DNA from: a virus
Reading direction: 5' to 3' (one strand)
Length of the DNA: 35,362 nucleotides
Virus record (IMG/VR): IMGVR_UViG_3300045283_000109
Span: 1-35,362 of that record
Shown: in pieces, positions 5,204 through 35,362 of the stretch
Layout: each line of letters begins with the position of its first letter
How positions within the stretch are numbered: position 1 is the stretch's first letter
Notes under the pieces: generated by a model
The model's database searches: none
The model's input: the letters and a program-made list of their open reading frames with translations, nothing else
Told to the model about the DNA's origin: nothing
Position numbers and translations under genes: made by a program

Positions 5204-5698
5204 TCATGCTGCGGCCTTTCTTCGTTCATGCTGGACCTTCTGGCTAAGCCGGTTGCACTCGCGGCACCGGCGCCACTTCCCGTTGATCAGTAGCGTGTTC
5301 TTAGGCGTGAACTCATGGCCATGCGGACAGTGGGTCTTGCTGACCCGTCGCACCGGCTGCTGCTGGTATTCGTGCAGGACCTCAAGCGCACGATCGCGGC
5401 GACGTTCACAGAGGTAGGGCATGAACATCTCCAGAAGCTTCACGAAGCTTTCGTGCTTGGTTGACTGCCAAACCCAGGCGTCCTTGTGGTGCGGCTCCTG
5501 CTTTTTACGTTCATGGACATTCCCGAATCCGACGATCGCCATGAATCGAAACAACACGTCCCGGTCAGTTGAAATCAGGCCCACGATGATGTTCTTGCGA
5601 ACCAAGCCATCTTTACGTGGCTTGGCCTTTACCATCGACATATAGCCTTCGCCCTCAAAAAGACCAGCCGCCCATGCGATTTCAATTTCGTGTGCCAT
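5204..5698 (-). CDS. Free-standing LAGLIDADG-type homing endonuclease
   Basis: 164 residues. Residues 8-18 (AWAAGLFEGEGYM) are a LAGLIDADG helix with the conserved acidic residue, and a second half follows around HKDAWVWQSTKHESFVKLLE. The C-terminus (THCPHGHEFTPKNT, RRCRECNR) is a zinc-binding or HNH-like finger often appended to such enzymes. It sits just after the tail tube gene and before the chaperone cluster, separating genes that are normally adjacent. That fits a selfish endonuclease gene inserted at a conserved tail locus. ATG at 5698 is three bases after the tube-gene stop. Confidence 0.82.
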   Translation of the reverse strand: MAHEIEIAWAAGLFEGEGYMSMVKAKPRKDGLVRKNIIVGLISTDRDVLFRFMAIVGFGNVHERKKQEPHHKDAWVWQSTKHESFVKLLEMFMPYLCERRRDRALEVLHEYQQQPVRRVSKTHCPHGHEFTPKNTLLINGKWRRCRECNRLSQKVQHERRKAAA

Positions 5699-5701
5699 TA
5701 C

Positions 5702-6703
5702 CTAGAGAGCTGCGGTCTTGTTCTGGTAAAGAATGCGCAAATAAGTTCCCGAAAGCCAAGCGGGATCATACATTGCATCGAATGTGTATGTCACAGCTTT
5801 AATTCCATCATTATCCGTTGGCCCTGCGATGCCGGTGATCTTGGCGGCCATGTCGATCTGGAACGAGTAGAACGCTGTCGCGGCTCCAGCGAGTACCGTC
5901 GAGACGGCCTCGAGCCGGATGTATTGGATGGTGCCGGCGCGGGCGGTGACGAGCGGCCCCATCCCCTGCGTGTCGGCTTCGACCGTCAGTTCCATCTGGC
6001 AGGTCGGCAGCGTCTCGACGTGGGAGACGTAGCTGGTGTTCGCCGAGTTGATCGGCCAGACGGCGTTGCGTGCGTTGTTGTACCGCCAGACCGCGTTGAA
6101 ATCGCGAGTGAGTTTCGTCGTGCCGATCGCGCCTGATGTTGCGTTGAGATAGACGTTCAGGTGGGTCGGCAGGATCGGCTGATCCTCGATCGCGGTCGGA
6201 GCGCCGGTCAGCGAGATGCCGTCCTGGATGGACTGGCCGAGCGCCGTCCCGCCCGTGACTTTCACCCCGTCCGTGCGGTTGAACGTCAGCTCGAGGTCGG
6301 TAAAGAGGAGATAGGACGCCTTCTGCGCCCTGGTCGCCGACCCCGTCTCGACCGTGTAAGTCTTGATGGTGTCTTCGGAGCGGCCGGTCGGGATGAACGT
6401 CCACAGCTTCGCGCTCGTGTCGACCGTGGTCGGGGTGACGTTCGAGAGCAGGCCGCAGAACGGGTAGATGAGCTCCGAGTAGCTGCCGACGTCGGAGCTG
6501 ACAGCCCACGACGTGTAGTCCATGCCGGGTGCGACACCCGATGAGGCCTTCTGGCCGATCGGCGTCATCGTGTTGAAGTTGCCCGCCCAGAAGGTTGGCG
6601 CGAGGCTCAGGTAGTTCAGGAGTTTCGTCGCCGCGACACCCGTGCCTGGGGTCACTTCTGGGCCGATCTGGATTCCGTTGAAGAGACTTGAGACTTCGGG
6701 CAT
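5702..6703 (-). CDS. Major tail (tube) protein
   Basis: 333 residues, located directly upstream of the chaperone/tape-measure block, where the tail tube gene belongs. The pattern of an N-terminal beta-rich core (FNGIQIGPEVTPGTGVAATK) and strands such as YLLFTDLELTFNRTDGVKVTG and FYSFQIDMAAKITG matches siphovirus tube proteins. AGAGGAG precedes the ATG at 6703 by seven bases. One CCGAAGAACA linker copy lies 27-39 bases upstream. The two opposite-strand moron genes separate it from the tail-completion gene. Confidence 0.8.
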   Translation of the reverse strand: MPEVSSLFNGIQIGPEVTPGTGVAATKLLNYLSLAPTFWAGNFNTMTPIGQKASSGVAPGMDYTSWAVSSDVGSYSELIYPFCGLLSNVTPTTVDTSAKLWTFIPTGRSEDTIKTYTVETGSATRAQKASYLLFTDLELTFNRTDGVKVTGGTALGQSIQDGISLTGAPTAIEDQPILPTHLNVYLNATSGAIGTTKLTRDFNAVWRYNNARNAVWPINSANTSYVSHVETLPTCQMELTVEADTQGMGPLVTARAGTIQYIRLEAVSTVLAGAATAFYSFQIDMAAKITGIAGPTDNDGIKAVTYTFDAMYDPAWLSGTYLRILYQNKTAAL

Positions 6704-25726: not shown

Positions 25727-26238
25727 TCGCCCCACCCCACGCCGGGGACGTAGACGAACCTCGCCGGGTCAACCGGGATCAGCAACTCGCCCGTCTCGAA
25801 GCCGAGATGTCCGTCAGCGCGAGCCGGGTGAGGATCCCAAGCGATCTCGGCGTCGTGCATGACGACCATGTGGCTGATGTGCGATCCGTCGGCCCGCGTG
25901 CGTCGAGAGGTGACGCCCGCAAGCCAGAGGCCGGTCGTGTAGCCGGAGAGCTTCGCCGAGTCGTCGTCGCTGACGCTGAACCAGGCATTACCGATGCGCC
26001 ATCCCTTCGAGGCGAGCCAGTTGGTCATCTCGATCCACCAGCGGTCACCCATGCTGGCGAAGTGGGGCACGTCGTCGTAGCCGAGACCGAGCAGCGTGGC
26101 GAGACAGCACTTCAGGCAGTCGCCTCGCTCGCCTGTCTCGGCATCGAAGAACAAGCGCTGCTCGACGCAGCGACCCGGCGCGAGCGTTGTCGCGGCACCA
26201 CCATCGGGACGACCGGATCCAGGCGTGAAAGAACTCAC
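25723..26238 (-). CDS. Papain/C39-like cysteine protease-fold protein
   Basis: 171 residues. ERGDCLKCCLATLLGLGYDD followed by VPHF, then SHISHMVVMHDAEIAWDPHP gives a Cys41-His123-Asp135 arrangement typical of C39/papain-like folds. Small phage and bacterial proteins with GDC...ATLLG...VPHF and HDPHP are common and uncharacterised. Coupled by GTGA to the methyltransferase. It could be a peptidase or an inactive relative. Confidence 0.62.
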   Translation of the reverse strand: MSSFTPGSGRPDGGAATTLAPGRCVEQRLFFDAETGERGDCLKCCLATLLGLGYDDVPHFASMGDRWWIEMTNWLASKGWRIGNAWFSVSDDDSAKLSGYTTGLWLAGVTSRRTRADGSHISHMVVMHDAEIAWDPHPARADGHLGFETGELLIPVDPARFVYVPGVGWGE

Positions 26239-26801
26239 GACACCTCCTCGAGCAGTGATGGGAAATCGGCTTTGGCGAGCGCTCTGCGGTCGGCGCGCTT
26301 CTCAGCGGACCGCGACCGAGCGATCAGCAATCCGGGCTGCGCCTGCCACTTCTTCCACGCCCTGCCGACGTTCCCGGATCCGGGGAAGAGGTCGTCGAGC
26401 TCGTCGTCCTCAACGGCGCCGAGCCATTCGAACAGCCACATGCAGAACGCCTCGGGCTTCTGGCCGATGACGTAGCTGTCGGGCTTCTCGCGCCACTGGT
26501 ACGAGTCGGGCTCGACCTGGATCCAGTCGCGGACGCCTTCTGGCTTGCGTGCCGGGCAAACGATGACGGGTTCCCATGAGACGGTGACGGTGTGCTTCAC
26601 CCAGGCGAGGACACGTGCGTTCTCGGGGCAGAGCGGCAGGATGTCGCGCAACGCTTCCGCGCTCGTCGACAGCACCCAGCCGCTGTAGCCGTTGAGCCTG
26701 TGGATCAGGTCGAAGTGGTCGACCTCTCCGGCGTAGTCGGGATGGTCCGCGTAGAGGTGTGCGCGGCCGGGATACGGCGGGTCGGCATACGCCAGCCTCA
26801 T
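26235..26801 (-). CDS. Solitary DNA adenine methyltransferase (beta order)
   Basis: 188 residues. Motif IV DPPY at 7-10 precedes motif I FPGSG at 139-143, the beta-class order. GWVLSTSAEALRDI and VKHTVTVSWEPVIVC fit phage N6-adenine (or N4-cytosine) methyltransferases. No restriction enzyme is nearby, so protection from host restriction is the likely role. It starts after a 122-bp non-coding gap. Confidence 0.8.
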   Translation of the reverse strand: MRLAYADPPYPGRAHLYADHPDYAGEVDHFDLIHRLNGYSGWVLSTSAEALRDILPLCPENARVLAWVKHTVTVSWEPVIVCPARKPEGVRDWIQVEPDSYQWREKPDSYVIGQKPEAFCMWLFEWLGAVEDDELDDLFPGSGNVGRAWKKWQAQPGLLIARSRSAEKRADRRALAKADFPSLLEEVS

Positions 26802-26923: not shown

Positions 26924-27847
26924 CTAGACGCGATCCCCGACCAGGCCTCGAACACGCTCGCCGAGCTCGTCCATATTCGGGTGCGAGTAGACATCCGCCG
27001 TCGTTTGAATCGATTCATGGCCGAGCATCCACTTCAAGTCTTCGAGGTCGACGCCGCATTCGCGCATCCTGCCGACGAATGAATGGCGCGCCATGTGCGG
27101 GTTGCGGTATTTCACGTCGGCCGCTTCGACCTGCTCTTTCCACCACCGCTCGAAGGTTGTGTTGGAGATCGGTGTGTCGCGCGTCAGAACGCTGCGTCCG
27201 CCGGGCCGCTTCGGCCAGATGTGATCAGTCGGGTTGAGTCCTTCGAGCGTGATGAGGTCGGTGCAGGCGATGGCGAGCCGGTCGACCATCGGAACCCGCC
27301 GGTCTCTGCCGCTCTTGGCGCCTTCGACGACGATCACCTGGCGTCTGGGAAGGTCAAGCCGCTTGGCCGTCAGCAGCCGCGCCTCGGTCCTTCGTAGGCC
27401 GGCCCAGAAGAGGAGGCTCATCAGTTCCCCGTGCGGCGTTGGGAGTGCACAGAGAGCGTCCGTCTCAGCCTTGGTGAAGATGTCGTAGTCGCGTTTGGGC
27501 CGGTAGACGATCGCTGGTAGAAGGTCGACGGGGTTGTTGGGGATTCGCCGGGTGCGGTAGCCCCATGTGAACCAGTTGTTCCAGGCGGCCTTGACGATGT
27601 GGCGCGACTTCGGCGGGTACGTCTTGAGGACGTGGGCGAGGTCACCGTCGGTGAAGTCGCTGAACTCATGGCGTGGGAAGGAGCGCAGGAGTGCTGCGAC
27701 GTACCTTTCGTACGCGTCGAGTGTGCGGGACGCCTTGTTTCCGAGCGCGAGCCAGGCGAGCCAGTCGGCCAGTTCCCGCGCGGCGCGCGCCTCGCGGTGG
27801 CGTAGGTCTTTCAGTGGATCGCAGCCTACGCTGGCAAGCGCGCTCAT
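26924..27847 (-). CDS. int: Tyrosine integrase
   Basis: 307 residues. Residues 24-100 form a SAM-like core-binding domain. The catalytic set is visible: Arg152 in AGLRRTEAR, Lys178 in EGAKSGRDRR, His251 and Arg254 in HMARHSF, His277 in LGHESIQ and Tyr287 in ADVYSH. It integrates and excises the prophage. ATG overlaps the upstream stop (ATGA), so it is co-transcribed with early genes, without an obvious promoter of its own. No excisionase is recognised with certainty. Confidence 0.95.
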   Translation of the reverse strand: MSALASVGCDPLKDLRHREARAARELADWLAWLALGNKASRTLDAYERYVAALLRSFPRHEFSDFTDGDLAHVLKTYPPKSRHIVKAAWNNWFTWGYRTRRIPNNPVDLLPAIVYRPKRDYDIFTKAETDALCALPTPHGELMSLLFWAGLRRTEARLLTAKRLDLPRRQVIVVEGAKSGRDRRVPMVDRLAIACTDLITLEGLNPTDHIWPKRPGGRSVLTRDTPISNTTFERWWKEQVEAADVKYRNPHMARHSFVGRMRECGVDLEDLKWMLGHESIQTTADVYSHPNMDELGERVRGLVGDRV

Positions 27848-28215
27848 GCGACTTCCTCACCACGACGCAGTCGGCCACGCAGAATCGTCGCCAACCGCTC
27901 AGCCTCCTCCCGCTCCGCCCGCGCCCGATTAGCTTCGGCCGCGTCAAGTGAAGCCTGCGCAGCCTCTCCTGGTGTCATGTCCGACTTTTTCCGCCAGCCA
28001 CCACGCCGCCGCCGGACCCGCCTGACGGTCGCCTCCGGATGCCGGGTCTCCCGATGCCGGCGGGCGCGTTCACGGCCCACCCCGGCCGGACCCGTATAGG
28101 TCCAGCGGCAGAAGAGACAGGATTCGACTACGGGTTGTGCGTCCCGGTCGGCTTCTGCTTCGGCACGTAGTTCTGCCATTGGTTTGCCGAGCCACCCTGA
28201 CTTGTGATCGGTCAT
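27844..28215 (-). CDS. C2H2-like zinc-finger protein with basic/helical tail
   Basis: 123 residues. ESCLFCRWTYTGPAGVGRER followed by RRHRETRH gives a C2H2-like finger (residues about 31-60). A strongly basic stretch (VRRVRRRRGGWRKK) and a long charged helix follow. DNA or RNA binding is plausible. Directly upstream of integrase and coupled to it, so an excisionase or directionality role is possible but unproven. Confidence 0.62.
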   Translation of the reverse strand: MTDHKSGWLGKPMAELRAEAEADRDAQPVVESCLFCRWTYTGPAGVGRERARRHRETRHPEATVRRVRRRRGGWRKKSDMTPGEAAQASLDAAEANRARAEREEAERLATILRGRLRRGEEVA

Positions 28216-28478
28216 ACCGGGTCCGCCTGATTGCGCATGCGGTATGCGTGCTCCACGTCGTATAACTCTTTGAAGTCGCGGGCCGGGATCCCCATGATGT
28301 GCAAGTTGTCGAGCATGGCCTCTTGGTCTTTGCCCATGACAGCGACGACCGCGCGATGAGCCTGCTGTGCGCTCTCTTCCGCTTTTACGGCGCGCTCAAT
28401 GGCAAGATCGCGCTCGAGTTCTGCGCGAGCCACGCGCACGGCCATCTCGGCGATGAAGCTGGTGCGCTTCTCGCTCAC
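28212..28478 (-). CDS. Coiled-coil early protein
   Basis: 88 residues from GTG at 28478, preceded by GAGGG at proper distance. Helical heptads (AEMAVRVARAELERDLAIER), then MGIPARDFKELYDVEHAYRM. No family recognised. A longer start that overlaps the transglycosylase gene is rejected. Confidence 0.6.
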   Translation of the reverse strand: MSEKRTSFIAEMAVRVARAELERDLAIERAVKAEESAQQAHRAVVAVMGKDQEAMLDNLHIMGIPARDFKELYDVEHAYRMRNQADPV

Positions 28479-28494
28479 CAGACCCTCGACGGGC

Positions 28495-28836
28495 CTACGA
28501 GAGGCCACACGCGCTGCTCGAGCCCCACTCGCGCCAACTGCCGCCGTCGCGAGTCCAGACGCGATGCGCCCGGTACGTCTGCTCCGCCGGCGAAGCAAGA
28601 TCCGGCCGGGTAACGCCGCCGACCGACCGCCATGTCGACCATAGAAACTGATAGGCGCCGTAATAGGAATTGCCGGTATTGCTCGTCCATGCGCCTTCGT
28701 GGTGGCGGATGCAGGACGCCTCTCGGATCCACCATCGCGGATACGGCCGGTGGTGCCAACGCCAGTACGCCGGGTGGGCTGCTGCCGGTGCGACGTGGAG
28801 CGATAGACAGATGACGATCGTCGTGATCCACCTCAG
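28495..28836 (-). CDS. Secreted Rpf/transglycosylase-like protein, CTG start
   Basis: 113 residues. No ATG, GTG or TTG start exists in this frame, but CTG at 28836 overlaps the upstream TGA (CTGA), as its neighbours do with ATGA and GTGA, and AAGGAAAGG lies just upstream. An N-terminal signal peptide follows (ITTIVICLSLHVAPAAA). Residues 39-75 match the Rpf-like transglycosylase core: EASCIRHHEGAW with probable catalytic Glu47, then NTGNSYYGAYQFLWSTW; the end has SPAEQTYRAHRVWTRDGG. It would cleave peptidoglycan outside the cell. It is an early gene, not part of the lysis cassette. Confidence 0.78.
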   Translation of the reverse strand: MRWITTIVICLSLHVAPAAAHPAYWRWHHRPYPRWWIREASCIRHHEGAWTSNTGNSYYGAYQFLWSTWRSVGGVTRPDLASPAEQTYRAHRVWTRDGGSWREWGSSSACGLS

Positions 28837-29060
28837 GATCTCGCCTTTCCTTCCCTCGCTTGCGCGTCCTCGCCGGGATGGCGGAGTTCAAGAGCGGCTG
28901 CCTTCTCGCGGTGCTTCCGCGCCAACCGGCGATGCGTCTCGGCGCTCCAATAGTGGCGACGGCGCTCGCGCACATCGGCGGACATTTGGTGGATCGCTGC
29001 CTGGTCGAGATGCCAGTCGACGGAGCCGCGTTGAGTCGTGAACGTCCAATAGTCAGTCAT
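28833..29060 (-). CDS. Small helical basic protein
   Basis: 75 residues (MTDYWTFTTQRGSVDWHLDQ start), with a basic helical middle (RRLARKHREKAAALELRH). ATGA overlap upstream and CTGA overlap downstream. No family recognised. Confidence 0.58.
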   Translation of the reverse strand: MTDYWTFTTQRGSVDWHLDQAAIHQMSADVRERRRHYWSAETHRRLARKHREKAAALELRHPGEDAQAREGKARS

Positions 29061-29248
29061 GCGGACTCCGACAGGTCGTCGTCATCAGCCCACAAGCGGT
29101 CCAGCTCGGCTTCACGGGAGACGTCAGGCGCGATCAATGGCCACACCACAGCCGTCACAGCACCCGCCAGGATCAGCCGCCAATCGTGCAACCACAACCC
29201 GGCGCCGAGCAGCCAGAGGGCCAATCCGATGAGGACTGCGGCGCTCAC
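29057..29248 (-). CDS. Small membrane protein, two hydrophobic segments
   Basis: 63 residues from GTG at 29248 (GTGA). Hydrophobic stretches at about 4-20 (AVLIGLALWLLGAGLWL) and 25-44, then an acidic tail (LWADDDDLSES). It could act as a superinfection-exclusion or membrane-modifying protein; no family recognised. Confidence 0.6.
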   Translation of the reverse strand: MSAAVLIGLALWLLGAGLWLHDWRLILAGAVTAVVWPLIAPDVSREAELDRLWADDDDLSESA

Positions 29249-29406
29249 CAGGGCTTCCTCGCATCCCTGAGGGCACGCCGCGCGACCGGTGGAGTGAAGT
29301 CGAGGTCGGCGACGTGGCGCTCGAGGCGGCGCATGATCAGCCACCCGTACAGGAGGCCGGCGGTTACGCCCAGGGTGAGGCCGATGAGGAACCAGGAGAC
29401 GTTCAC
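29245..29406 (-). CDS. Small single-pass membrane protein
   Basis: 53 residues from GTG at 29406 (GTGA). One hydrophobic helix (VSWFLIGLTLGVTAGLLYGW) followed by a basic cytoplasmic part (MRRLERHVADLDF). Coupled to the next membrane gene, so the two may work together. Confidence 0.6.
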   Translation of the reverse strand: MNVSWFLIGLTLGVTAGLLYGWLIMRRLERHVADLDFTPPVARRALRDARKPW

Positions 29407-29609
29407 GGTCTCAGCGCTTTCTCCATACGTTCCACAGCGCAAGCAGCGCAGAAGCGATGCGAACTAGTCCTAAGCGCCTTTTGTCCGCTGCCGCGTTCAC
29501 GGATCGACACAACAAGGCCGACCTCAATCTGCTCGCCGCAGGAACACTTACCGTCGCCATACGGCCTTGACGTCGAAGCGGCCCGTAGCTTGTCTAGGGC
29601 TTCGCTCAT
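29403..29609 (-). CDS. Small Cys-rich zinc-site protein
   Basis: 68 residues. GKCSCGEQIEVGLVV and SHRFCAACAVERMEKAL give a CxC...CxxC metal site. ATGA overlap with the RecT-like gene. Function unknown. Confidence 0.62.
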   Translation of the reverse strand: MSEALDKLRAASTSRPYGDGKCSCGEQIEVGLVVSIRERGSGQKALRTSSHRFCAACAVERMEKALRP

Positions 29610-30541
29610 GCCGCCTCAAGCTTCGTCAGCCGATCGATTAGCCCGGACGCTTCGCCCTTCGACAGACTGTCGCGGAGCGGTCCCCAGTGGAGCTCGCCGT
29701 CATCGGCCGTGTTCTTCGCGCCTTCGATCCAGAGGTCGGGATCGGTGTCGCGCATCCGGGCCACAGCGAGGTACAAATGCTCCGTGTGCAGCCGGTCGGC
29801 GGCCCGCAGCTTTGAGACGACCACGTCGAGCTTCTTCTTCTGGCTTGGGCTGGCAGCAGTCGCCATGTCGGCCGTCTCGGGCTCGAATAAGTCCTCGAAC
29901 GACTCGCCAGGCAGGTCGGTCTTCTGGCTCGACCGCTTGATCTGTGGCTCGGCGGAGGACTGCTGATCGCCAGTGGGGAGCGCAGCAGAGACGGACATGG
30001 ACCCTTCGGTCGACTCCTTCGGTTCCCCCGCCGAGACTTCTTCGAGTTCCTCGGGCGTGTACGTCGCGCCTGCGAAACAGTCGGCGAACAACATGCGGCA
30101 CAACTGCGACGCGGCGCGCGCCCACAACATCGCCTCCGGGTACTTCACCCAATTCTGTTTCTTGACGAGGCCAGCACGCGCTGCCATCTCGAGCGTCCAC
30201 GTCGACTTCATCGTGTCGCCGTTGTCGGCGCGCGTCCCCGTCACGGTCGCGCTGCCCTCGGTGACCTCTCCCACTATCGAATGGCCGGCACGCCTGACGA
30301 GCTGAACCATCAGTTCTGCCGAGAACGTCGCCTTTCCGTCGATGATGTGGATCGCCTTCAACGCGGCCATGTCACCGATCCCGAGCTCGCGGCCGGTCGC
30401 GACACAGGCGAGGATGGCGGGCAGGTTGCCGCGCAACCCCGGCGGAACGAACTCGGTGCCGGCGATGAACTTCAGTTGTTCGTTGGTGAGGACTGCCGGT
30501 TGGCGCGCCTCATCCCGAACGACAATCTCTGTGCTGGTCAC
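29606..30541 (-). CDS. RecT-like single-strand annealing protein
   Basis: 311 residues. The RecT-type core is seen in RELGIGDMAALKAIHIIDGK, TFSAELMVQLVRRAGHSIVG, and the hallmark YPEAMLWARAASQLCRMLFA with TYTPEELEE (residues about 50-170). The C-terminal third is less conserved and helical. It anneals homologous single strands in phage recombination. No partner exonuclease is identified; the PDDEXK protein at 22770 is too small for a RecE. GTG start with GTGA overlap. Confidence 0.83.
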   Translation of the reverse strand: MTSTEIVVRDEARQPAVLTNEQLKFIAGTEFVPPGLRGNLPAILACVATGRELGIGDMAALKAIHIIDGKATFSAELMVQLVRRAGHSIVGEVTEGSATVTGTRADNGDTMKSTWTLEMAARAGLVKKQNWVKYPEAMLWARAASQLCRMLFADCFAGATYTPEELEEVSAGEPKESTEGSMSVSAALPTGDQQSSAEPQIKRSSQKTDLPGESFEDLFEPETADMATAASPSQKKKLDVVVSKLRAADRLHTEHLYLAVARMRDTDPDLWIEGAKNTADDGELHWGPLRDSLSKGEASGLIDRLTKLEAA

Positions 30542-31756: not shown

Positions 31757-32953
31757 TCAAGGTGCCGGCTGGACGTCTTGGTAGACGATGCCGCGCGTCT
31801 TGTTCCAGACGCCACCCGTCACCTGCGGGTTCTGGTTCGTGTTCGACGCGCGCCCGAACTCGACGGTGACACCGGAGGCGTTGACGATCGAGTAGACGCA
31901 CGCACCCTGGAGGTTCTGACATTCGATGTATTTGATGTCGAGGGTCGCGGTGGGTGTTTTGCTGCCCCAGAACTGGATTCCGTTGCCGCCCGTCATCACA
32001 TGCGAGACCATCGTCTCGTTGACGCACTTCAGGTAGATCGTGTCGCTCGTTGCAGAGCCACTGTCGTTGCCGTACTCGACGCAGGCCCCCACAGGAATGT
32101 CGTGCGCGTAGAAGGCGAATCGGTTGTTCGTGAAGGCGGCAGAGGACGGCCCGTCCCACAGGTTCGCAGCGTGCAGGCCCGTCCCCTTCTCAGAGTGTGG
32201 GTCGTAGGCGGTGTGGAGTCCGACATTGCTGATCTCTCCCTGGAGGTCGTCGTGGCCGGTCGGGTTCGTCCCCGACGCGATCACCTGGAGGCCGGTGTCG
32301 CCGCACGTGTCGAGCTTGAAGCTGTACCAGAGGACGTGCTGCGTCCCGAAGATCCGCAGGCACATGCCACCGGATGCTCCTGTCGTGATCGAGCCGCCGA
32401 AGATGTTCAGGTTGGCGGCGTTGTTCAGCTCGACGGCTTCGGTGTCGCTCGAGCCCGTGTAGGCGATCGTGACGCCGGTCAGGTCGATCTCAGCCGTAGC
32501 CGACGGGCGGTTCGTGATCACAAGCGGCGTGCTCGAGGCTGACGAGACGGTGAACGGTGAGGTCGCCTGGACGAGATCGCCAGCCTGGAGGTTCGCCAGG
32601 GCTGTCTTCAACGCGGCGGCGGTTGTGACGTTGATGGTCCGGGTCGGGGTGAACGCCGGCCGCGTCTGTGAGTAGGCGATCGCCTGGTCGTAGGAGCTCG
32701 GAGGCGGGGTGGCCGTCGTTGTTGGTGCGGTAGTCGTTGTTGGCGCCGTCGTAGAGGTGGTGCCCGTAGTGGCACCCGGCACGCACGCGACAACTGACAC
32801 CACCACTCCGTTAGTGAGCGTCTGAGCGGGCGACGTGTCGCACACGCTCGGAGGATCGGACGCGGACGCTGTGAGCGACGAGGCTGCATAGCCGCCACCG
32901 CCGAAACCGAGTACGGCGAGCAAACCGGCTGCGATCGCGAGAGCCTTTCTCAC
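31757..32953 (-). CDS. Exported right-handed beta-helix protein
   Basis: 398 residues, GTG start. Sec signal peptide (LAIAAGLLAVLGFGGGGYA), then a Thr-rich linker (about 62-85) and from about 105 onward a parallel beta-helix of pectate-lyase type (VELNNAANLNIFGGSITTGA, VLWYSFKLDTCGDTGLQVIA, NNRFAFYAHDIPVGACVEYG). Repeated Cys could form disulfides outside the cell. A signal peptide is not expected on a virion tail spike, so this may be a prophage-expressed secreted glycan-binding or glycan-cleaving protein. Last gene before the repressor. Confidence 0.75.
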   Translation of the reverse strand: MRKALAIAAGLLAVLGFGGGGYAASSLTASASDPPSVCDTSPAQTLTNGVVVSVVACVPGATTGTTSTTAPTTTTAPTTTATPPPSSYDQAIAYSQTRPAFTPTRTINVTTAAALKTALANLQAGDLVQATSPFTVSSASSTPLVITNRPSATAEIDLTGVTIAYTGSSDTEAVELNNAANLNIFGGSITTGASGGMCLRIFGTQHVLWYSFKLDTCGDTGLQVIASGTNPTGHDDLQGEISNVGLHTAYDPHSEKGTGLHAANLWDGPSSAAFTNNRFAFYAHDIPVGACVEYGNDSGSATSDTIYLKCVNETMVSHVMTGGNGIQFWGSKTPTATLDIKYIECQNLQGACVYSIVNASGVTVEFGRASNTNQNPQVTGGVWNKTRGIVYQDVQPAP

Positions 32954-33935: not shown

Positions 33936-34526
33936 TCACGCCCGACCCCACATGTGCCTGAAGCCACCACGGTGGAACTCGCTCTTCACCAACTGGCCGA
34001 ACGCAGCCCACAGATGCAGGTCCGTGGTCGGGCAGGACGTATGCCCGCCGCCGAGGGAACCTAGGTCGCCGTGACGGCAGAACCCGGAGCCGTGGACGAT
34101 ACCGCTCGAGGTGAGCGCATGCGCCGGCAGGTGATAGTGGTGCAACAGGTAGGCGACGAGGTGGGCGAGCTGGTGGAACCCGGCCGGGTCATGGCCCAAC
34201 CAGATCGCGTCCGCCGACTCCACCTCTACAGAGTCGGGGTTGTAGTACGCCTCCGCCCATGCTTTCTGATGCCACGGCACCATCTGGGTCGCCTCTCCCG
34301 GCACCGCAGAACCGGGATAAACGATGTGCGCCGACACCTGCGACGCGGGCTTCTTGAAGTAGTCAATCACGCCCTTGTAGGACCGGGCTTCGGCGTGCTC
34401 ATCGGTGAACCGGACACCCCAACGGTGGACGACAACCAACCGGATCGGGGTGCCACCGCGGCTACCGCAGTTATGGGTTGGCTCCCACTTCAACTGCGGG
34501 AGCTGGTGCGGCAGAACTTCACTCAC
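33936..34526 (-). CDS. Endolysin: N-acetylmuramoyl-L-alanine amidase
   Basis: 196 residues from GTG at 34526, preceded by GGAG at six bases. PGRP/Amidase_2 fold: IRLVVVHRWGVRF with zinc ligand His34, HIVYPGSAVPGEATQMVPWH, and SGFCRHGDLGSLGGGHTSCP providing the other ligands (His152 or His162, Cys165), as in T7 lysozyme. It lacks a separate cell-wall-binding domain. It cleaves the stem-peptide bond of peptidoglycan at lysis. Confidence 0.88.
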   Translation of the reverse strand: MSEVLPHQLPQLKWEPTHNCGSRGGTPIRLVVVHRWGVRFTDEHAEARSYKGVIDYFKKPASQVSAHIVYPGSAVPGEATQMVPWHQKAWAEAYYNPDSVEVESADAIWLGHDPAGFHQLAHLVAYLLHHYHLPAHALTSSGIVHGSGFCRHGDLGSLGGGHTSCPTTDLHLWAAFGQLVKSEFHRGGFRHMWGRA

Positions 34527-34695
34527 GGCGCGCTCCAGGCACGGCAGGCCCATATCCCTCAACCAGGCCTGCGAGCACCCATGCGGCGAGACCGAAACAG
34601 ACCAGGTCAAGCTCGCCCTGGCTGAACAGGGTGCCGTTGAAGCCGCCGATCAGGAAGAGAATCAGCGCGAGAACGCGCAGCAACAGAGAGATCAT
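34519..34695 (-). CDS. Small membrane protein, possible holin
   Basis: 58 residues from ATG at 34695 with AAAAGGAGG upstream. Two hydrophobic segments (LLLRVLALILFLIGGFNGTL; LVCFGLAAWVLAGLVEG). Coupled to the amidase (overlap of eight bases), so a lysis role (second holin or antiholin) is plausible. Confidence 0.62.
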   Translation of the reverse strand: MISLLLRVLALILFLIGGFNGTLFSQGELDLVCFGLAAWVLAGLVEGYGPAVPGARRE

Positions 34696-34905: not shown

Positions 34906-34918
34906 TGTTCTTCGGCTA
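34906..34918 (-). repeat. TAGCCGAAGAACA junction linker, copy 5
   Basis: Begins with the TAG of the LamG tail gene and runs to the ATG at 34898 of the following small gene. Fifth identical copy in the late region. Confidence 0.8.
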
Positions 34919-35362
34919 GACCGGCGAGACGCCGAACCGAACAGACCAGGATCCCCCATCATTCGCACCCGTGATCTCGATCTTCTGAATCCAGAGGTCT
35001 TCCTGAATCCGTGCACCACCCCCCGGCGGGGTGCGCAGGACACGAATCTTGTCGCCGAGCTCGCGCCTGAACACCTCCTGCGCCGTGTTCGCGTCAAGAG
35101 TGTTGAGGGTGATGCTTGTGATCCGCGTCATCGGATCCTTGTATTTGGCGAGCATCGCCGTCGCGATCGCCGTGGAGTCCGTGTCGGTAGTGACCGGCAC
35201 ATCCGAAAGCGTCGCAGGCCGGCTGAAGTAACGCGAGACCGAGGTTGCGTCCGTAGCGGTTTTCGTTTCGCCCAGGTCACCCGTGAACTTCACGCCCTGC
35301 TCACGAGTCACGTTCCACTCGTTGAACAGGAACGAGTCGGAGTCGTCAAGGGTCAGGTCGAG
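34916..35362 (-). CDS. LamG-like tail protein, C-terminal part
   Basis: This is the 3' portion of the gene that starts at 1057, joined across the circular closure. Before the stop the protein leaves the LamG fold and becomes a C-terminal domain of about 200 residues that resembles a tail-tip baseplate-like segment (LDDSDSFLFNEWNVTRE and onward); I cannot name this domain. It ends with TAG at 34916-34918, followed by the CCGAAGAACA linker and the ATG of the next gene. Confidence 0.85.
   Translation of the reverse strand, partial: LDLTLDDSDSFLFNEWNVTREQGVKFTGDLGETKTATDATSVSRYFSRPATLSDVPVTTDTDSTAIATAMLAKYKDPMTRITSITLNTLDANTAQEVFRRELGDKIRVLRTPPGGGARIQEDLWIQKIEITGANDGGSWSVRFGVSPV
35236..35362. 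repeat. Right copy of 127-bp terminal direct repeat
   Basis: Exact copy of positions 1-127. Trimming one copy gives a circular unit of 35,235 bp in which the LamG tail gene is intact. Confidence 0.95.

Follow-up and report, generated by a model that had tools for sequence, protein, structure and literature searches.

A viral family of Rpf-type transglycosylase genes that mostly appear to begin at non-canonical start codons

Background

Can a reading frame that offers no ATG, GTG or TTG encode a conserved, exported enzyme, and if so, from which codon would it be read and why would a virus keep so poor a start? This question is raised by the viral record IMGVR_UViG_3300045283_000109, which was analysed over its whole length of 35,362 nucleotides (the window), and in which a secreted transglycosylase resembling the resuscitation-promoting factors (Rpf) had been predicted in such a frame. 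The Rpf catalytic domain, PF06737, is typical of actinobacteria. Stand-alone phage-borne Rpfs are already known as annotated genes, namely gene 102 of prophi79-1, gene 174 of GiJojo and gene 107 of Shagrat. Phages also use a comparable motif within the virion, as the tape measure protein of mycobacteriophage TM4 carries an Rpf-like peptidoglycan hydrolase motif, which the title of the paper connects with the ability to infect cells in stationary phase (PMC1796659).

Few genes keep a near-cognate start through evolution, infC and Streptomyces sigR being examples. IF3 represses initiation at the GTC of sigR and at the start of infC, which is ATT or, in Streptomyces, ATC, and changing the sigR start to a canonical codon upsets the system (PMC5472188). 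In the literature searched, we found no description of a phage family with conserved near-cognate starts, and found none of phage-encoded Rpf in soil viruses.

Results

The gene and its product

Translation of the minus strand from 28836 to 28495 gives a protein that begins LRWITTIVICLSLHVAPAAAHPAYW, includes NTGNSYYGAYQF and Glu47, and ends CGLS before a TAG. The original prediction of a frame lacking ATG, GTG and TTG is borne out over the entire stop-to-stop stretch, 28495-28887, which contains none of the three. The plus-strand reading of 28495-28836 is interrupted by stops and encodes no such protein, and codon scores prefer the Rpf frame to a rival minus-strand open reading frame over the same stretch (28475-28975). 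The features of the gene are as follows.

28495-28836, minus strand: gene for the Rpf-type transglycosylase, 113 residues plus TAG when read from CTG, identified by its translation, PF06737, purifying selection and an AlphaFold2 model like RpfB
28777-28836, minus strand: predicted Sec signal peptide LRWITTIVICLSLHVAPAAA, cleaved at about A-x-A, identified by hydropathy, motif and in-frame conservation in relatives
28525-28698, minus strand: Pfam-matched part of the transglycosylase domain, residues 47-104, with the Glu47 codon at 28698-28696

The match to PF06737 (Transglycosylas, the Rpf catalytic domain) has E=9.2e-13 and scores 49.1 bits, the cut-off being 27, and a profile built from the relatives described below matches RpfE, RpfC and RpfB of Mycobacterium tuberculosis. 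The AlphaFold2 model, with pLDDT 94-97 across the Rpf domain, compares closely with RpfB 5e27 (Z 12.9, 1.8 Å over 83 residues) and with 3eo5 (Z 12.8, 1.4 Å). Ten residues are invariant in 30 aligned rows: W36, C42, E47, W50, Q63, F64, T68, W101, W104 and C110. A PF06737 score above the gathering cut-off, the catalytic Glu with the Cys pair, and the Rpf fold, by which membership in the Rpf domain family is judged, are thus all present. Signal peptides were assessed solely by hydropathy and cleavage motif, and by these measures the window protein and most of its relatives have a hydrophobic N-terminus and an A-x-A motif. The domain match and the model point to a small Rpf-type muralytic enzyme of lytic-transglycosylase/lysozyme fold that is putatively exported.

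Relatives and selection

Searches with the single protein as query returned 16 relatives and searches with alignments returned further ones, giving 31 further distinct members in separate viral contigs, or 32 with the window (the others are numbered below with the prefix L). The Rpf frame is intact in all 32 contigs. Members typically have a start codon, an R or K within two codons, a hydrophobic stretch and the Rpf core, and most carry a C-terminal DGGSWREWxTxxxCGLR motif. Comparison of the domain part of the window gene with that of L020 gives Ka 0.19 and Ks 2.3, and L027 against L028 gives Ka 0.015 and Ks 0.52; in the signal-peptide part Ka is below Ks in several pairs, L027 and L028 being too alike there to tell. 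The Rpf frame is under strong purifying selection. The stretch 5' of the start in L035 and L037 is conserved in a different frame, that of the upstream gene, so that coding in the Rpf frame begins at the proposed start. With the PF06737 match, the conserved catalytic residues, the relatives and Ka/Ks far below 1, the hidden Rpf-type gene that had been predicted stands, and on these comparisons 28495-28836 is a genuine gene.

Some members depart from this plan. An extra basic segment of 50-80 residues lies between signal peptide and Rpf domain in L022 (5740-6255), L063 (3710-4243) and L039 (5785-6282), and is REHRQVKSLHRYVGTIRFF-like in L022 and L063. In L023, which shares its contig with L007, an HNH-like frame lies out of frame between a signal-peptide-like start and the Rpf domain (5509-6243), an arrangement that would fit insertion of an endonuclease gene into the transglycosylase gene or overprinting of one upon it.

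By these alignments and contig sources, the genes constitute a distinct Rpf-type family that has so far been found only in IMG/VR viral contigs. A genome scan returned two remote Chloroflexota proteins that share SWREW, and their genomes gave no PF06737 match; no plasmid match was found for the L034 homolog. A search for relatives through the two neighbouring genes of the window (28833-29060 and 28212-28478) found none, and the window terminase, consulted as a clue to the host, matched only distant phages.

Start codons across the family

The start codon of each member was assigned manually, guided by the alignment and the Shine-Dalgarno stretch. At the aligned position, 12 members have ATC, 11 CTG (the window included), six TTG, two ATG (L032 and L042) and one GTG (L079). 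CTG or ATC therefore occurs in 23 of the 32 members and in 22 of the 31 other than the window, a stronger non-canonical trend than had been expected. The original prediction had also proposed looking for related phages with ATG or GTG in the equivalent place; the three members just named have them and confirm the position of the start. The ATG of L032 aligns exactly with the ATC of its near relatives L035 and L037, which fixes that position.

No canonical codon is present from -40 to +12 codons around the start in 12 of the 32 members. Under a comparable criterion the same is true of one gene among 282 others called in those loci (Fisher p ~2e-12), these controls having been called by a simple codon-usage script and not by a standard gene caller. 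Generally relaxed start rules in these phages were rejected as an explanation, a canonical start being available in 281 of the 282 other genes. Where a Shine-Dalgarno match of at least 5 was required and the codon left free, CTG or ATC was found in 13 of the 15 family members examined; the same test applied to 110 other genes gave seven with CTG or ATC and one with ATT, all eight with a canonical alternative in range. The remaining 11 of the 23 CTG/ATC members do have a canonical codon within this interval (such as the GTG at +2 in L036 and L058 or the ATG at +3 in L034), which makes their true start less certain. In L020, L038 and L057 the canonical alternative would truncate the signal peptide within its hydrophobic core. 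A start other than ATG, GTG or TTG that is conserved in relatives, one of the properties by which genes of the infC and sigR type are recognized, is found here (23 of 32, with 12 lacking a canonical alternative in range).

A tree of the 32 proteins requires no fewer than 14 changes of start codon. ATC and CTG have been exchanged between L027 and L028, which are 94% identical, and between the window and L020, with ATG avoided; a TTG/GTG subclade and the two ATG members show that the family can do without a poor start. A Shine-Dalgarno stretch lies at initiation distance in most members, and the family's initiation regions show slightly less structure than do their counterparts in the control genes. 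This last result led us to reject an RNA structure hiding the start, and since the regions are not occluded the limit appears to reside in the codon itself. ATG is one mutation away from ATC, CTG, TTG and GTG and yet is rare, which suggests selection against a strong start.

The start used in the window

Two adjacent codons are candidates for initiation in the window.

28834-28836, minus strand: candidate start CTG, overlapping the upstream TGA (28835-28833) as CTGA
28837-28839, minus strand: alternative start ATC, one codon 5' of the CTG, supported by retention of ATC in L064 and L066 and by Shine-Dalgarno spacing
28844-28852, minus strand: Shine-Dalgarno stretch AAGGAAAGG, with a similar stretch in most relatives

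The region reads AAGGAAAGGCGAG ATC CTG AGG TGG, and its equivalents are ATC CTA AGT TGG in L064 and ATC CTA GGT TGG in L066, where the upstream genes end in TAA and TAG in place of the window's TGA. As CTA falls outside the near-cognates of AUG, L064 and L066 presumably start at ATC, and the window may do likewise; its spacing of 8 nt between AAGGA and ATC equals the spacing from AAGGA to the start in L021, L026, L027, L028 and L036. Of the claim that CTG is the only sensible start, the non-canonical nature of the start survives and the exclusiveness does not, the adjacent ATC being a candidate as well. By sequence comparison the start is CTG 28836 or ATC 28839, and as both are non-canonical the conclusion of a non-canonical start is independent of which one is used.

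Genomic context

The gene belongs to a coupled string on the minus strand that runs from a RecT-like gene to an integrase gene.

29606-30541, minus strand: RecT-like annealing protein gene, head of the string (phrog_561, E=3.7e-30)
29245-29406, minus strand: small gene of the coupled operon whose product has a hydrophobic stretch and resembles a membrane protein
29057-29248, minus strand: small gene of the coupled operon whose product has hydrophobic stretches and resembles a membrane protein
28833-29060, minus strand: upstream gene, 75 residues, without a match to a known family; its TGA and the transglycosylase start overlap
28212-28478, minus strand: gene 3' of the transglycosylase gene, GTG start, no assigned function
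26924-27847, minus strand: tyrosine integrase gene, end of the string (PF00589, E=9e-23)
33936-34610, minus strand: endolysin candidate, Amidase_2 (PF01510, E=7.5e-12; phrog_12609)

The NTGA coupling that had been described along this operon is real: sequence and open reading frame coordinates give seven overlap junctions (ATGA 29609, GTGA 29406, GTGA 29248, ATGA 29060, CTGA 28836, ATGA 28215 and ATGA 27847), and a short gap separates the transglycosylase gene from the GTG of the next gene at 28478. The membrane-protein-like pair at 29057-29406 lies a short way upstream of the transglycosylase gene in this string, and a holin-like or regulatory role is conceivable for it.

In 17 of the 32 loci a gene of the window integrase's family is found at most seven genes away from the transglycosylase gene, and in L036 and L038 such an integrase gene immediately precedes it, the integrase TGA and the transglycosylase CTG overlapping. 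RecT-like proteins and DNA methyltransferases are further neighbours of family members. Judged by this gene order, the location is a temperate-phage position tied to lysogeny or early functions. The window's tape measure protein carries an SLT-type domain, and with this and its own Amidase_2 endolysin the phage is unlikely to use the Rpf-type protein as its main lysis enzyme or virion muralysin. Considered as a phage endolysin or member of the lysis cassette, the Rpf-type gene did not qualify, on the grounds of the separate Amidase_2 gene and of its location in the RecT-to-integrase string.

Several other genes of the window are worth recording. A secreted-looking protein of 398 residues with a Thr-rich linker (31757-32953, minus strand) lies between the endolysin and a repressor-like gene and matched neither Pfam nor PHROG. 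A 188-residue protein starting MRLAYADPPYPG (26235-26801, minus strand) resembles MT-A70-type adenine methyltransferases, and no Pfam or PHROG model matched it. Two genes at opposite ends of the record (1058-1717 and 34916-35362, both minus strand) match different portions of phrog_5313, as if a circularly permuted genome had been cut within its tail genes.

Discussion

The window protein shares with RpfB, RpfC and RpfE of M. tuberculosis (PF06737) the fold, the catalytic Glu, the conserved Cys pair and a secreted architecture, the last as predicted here. It differs in that the Cys of the phage family stands five residues before the Glu, whereas in the Rpfs it adjoins the Glu, in the C-terminal DGGSWREWxTxxxCGLR motif that most members carry, in being phage-borne with a non-canonical start, and, for the window protein, in having no accessory domain. 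Such a gene has a precedent in prophi79-1 gene 102, from a Mycobacterium abscessus prophage, a small, secreted, stand-alone Rpf in a temperate phage; however, it lies between terminase and portal genes, is RpfC-like and has 47% identity over the core only. Gene 174 of the Streptomyces phage GiJojo and gene 107 of the Rhodococcus phage Shagrat likewise combine a signal-like N-terminus with an Rpf domain, but are longer, with an added C-terminal region and another C-terminal motif. All three of these genes have signal-like N-termini and, unlike most of the present family, ATG starts. The TM4 motif belongs to the virion and not to a free secreted protein (PMC1796659), and in its place the window's tape measure protein has the SLT-type domain. 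A conserved non-canonical start combined with a strong ribosome-binding site is shared with infC and sigR (PMC5472188), which differ in being host genes for which IF3 repression has been shown, while the phage family swaps ATC, CTG and TTG.

We consider it probable that the family represents a phage-borne, exported Rpf-type muralytic enzyme whose dose is kept low by near-cognate initiation. Ribosomes would finish the overlapping upstream gene or load at the strong Shine-Dalgarno stretch and would initiate with fMet at a near-cognate CUG or AUC. As AUG, and for the most part GUG, has been avoided at the start across the family, the poor codon may act as a built-in throttle, yielding a small dose of wall-cleaving enzyme in proportion to the operon. 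Overproduction of the enzyme could damage the lysogen or the infected cell, and the family-wide poor starts suggest that these phages deliberately produce little of it. Its role would lie in lysogeny or early infection rather than in lysis, perhaps as local wall remodelling or a resuscitation-like effect.

The same codons might instead serve as a switch, which we regard as possible but doubtful. Host IF3 would repress the AUC or CUG start and slow growth or stress would relieve it, so that the secreted enzyme would be metered by the state of the host's IF3 and ribosomes and made only in certain host states, for a dormant or stressed host. The start codons of most members do belong to the set that IF3 disfavours, and the fold is that of a resuscitation-promoting factor; Streptomyces sigR and infC are under such control, yet the same study failed to show that oxidative stress raises the synthesis of SigR from its GTC start (PMC5472188), and the TTG members do not fit a logic of IF3 only. 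That selection is simply relaxed, the gene being rarely expressed, little product being needed and poor starts tolerated with no selection against AUG, is unlikely: five codon types do occur at the start, but drift should often reach ATG, which only two of the 32 have, and the Shine-Dalgarno stretch is retained. An accessory role in lysis, in which an exported lytic transglycosylase aids the endolysin and the poor start delays its build-up, seems still less likely to us. The muralytic fold and the two small membrane-protein-like genes a short way upstream in the operon would suit it, but the separate endolysin gene lies about 5 kb away, and the stretch between RecT and integrase, with an integrase nearby in over half of the loci, is a lysogeny or early position.

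Two readings would do without initiation at the proposed codon. Production as a fusion with the upstream gene by ribosomal frameshifting, for which many loci offer an upstream stop that overlaps the start in the +1 frame, is highly improbable, since the upstream genes vary from locus to locus, no nearby +1-frame stop exists in L022, L027, L028, L030 and L031, a slippery heptamer occurs in one of the 32 members and that a TTG member, and the Shine-Dalgarno stretch sits at initiation distance, with ATG at the same place in L032 and L042. A non-functional remnant whose start has decayed and which is not made could be imagined from the window frame, with its lack of a canonical start, but is strongly disfavoured and the least credible reading of all, given intact frames throughout the family, Ka/Ks far below 1 and invariant catalytic residues.

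Conclusions

Metered initiation of an exported Rpf-type enzyme remains our preferred reading of this mostly non-canonically started family. As the original prediction foresaw, gene callers restricted to ATG, GTG and TTG would overlook the transglycosylase gene of the window, with its non-canonical start overlapping the preceding gene, and such pipelines would truncate relatives, with loss of the signal peptide; the phage Rpf repertoire is therefore probably undercounted. One protein with ATC, CTG, TTG, GTG or ATG starts is a clean natural experiment, and these natural variants offer a test of whether start quality is selected to restrict a dangerous enzyme. According to a 2025 meeting report, host Rpfs matter to two mycobacteriophages, which infect less well where the strain is Rpf-deficient (PMC12908700). 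Should the growth of the host or infection by phages depend on Rpf dose, phages that carry a metered Rpf would become directly testable.
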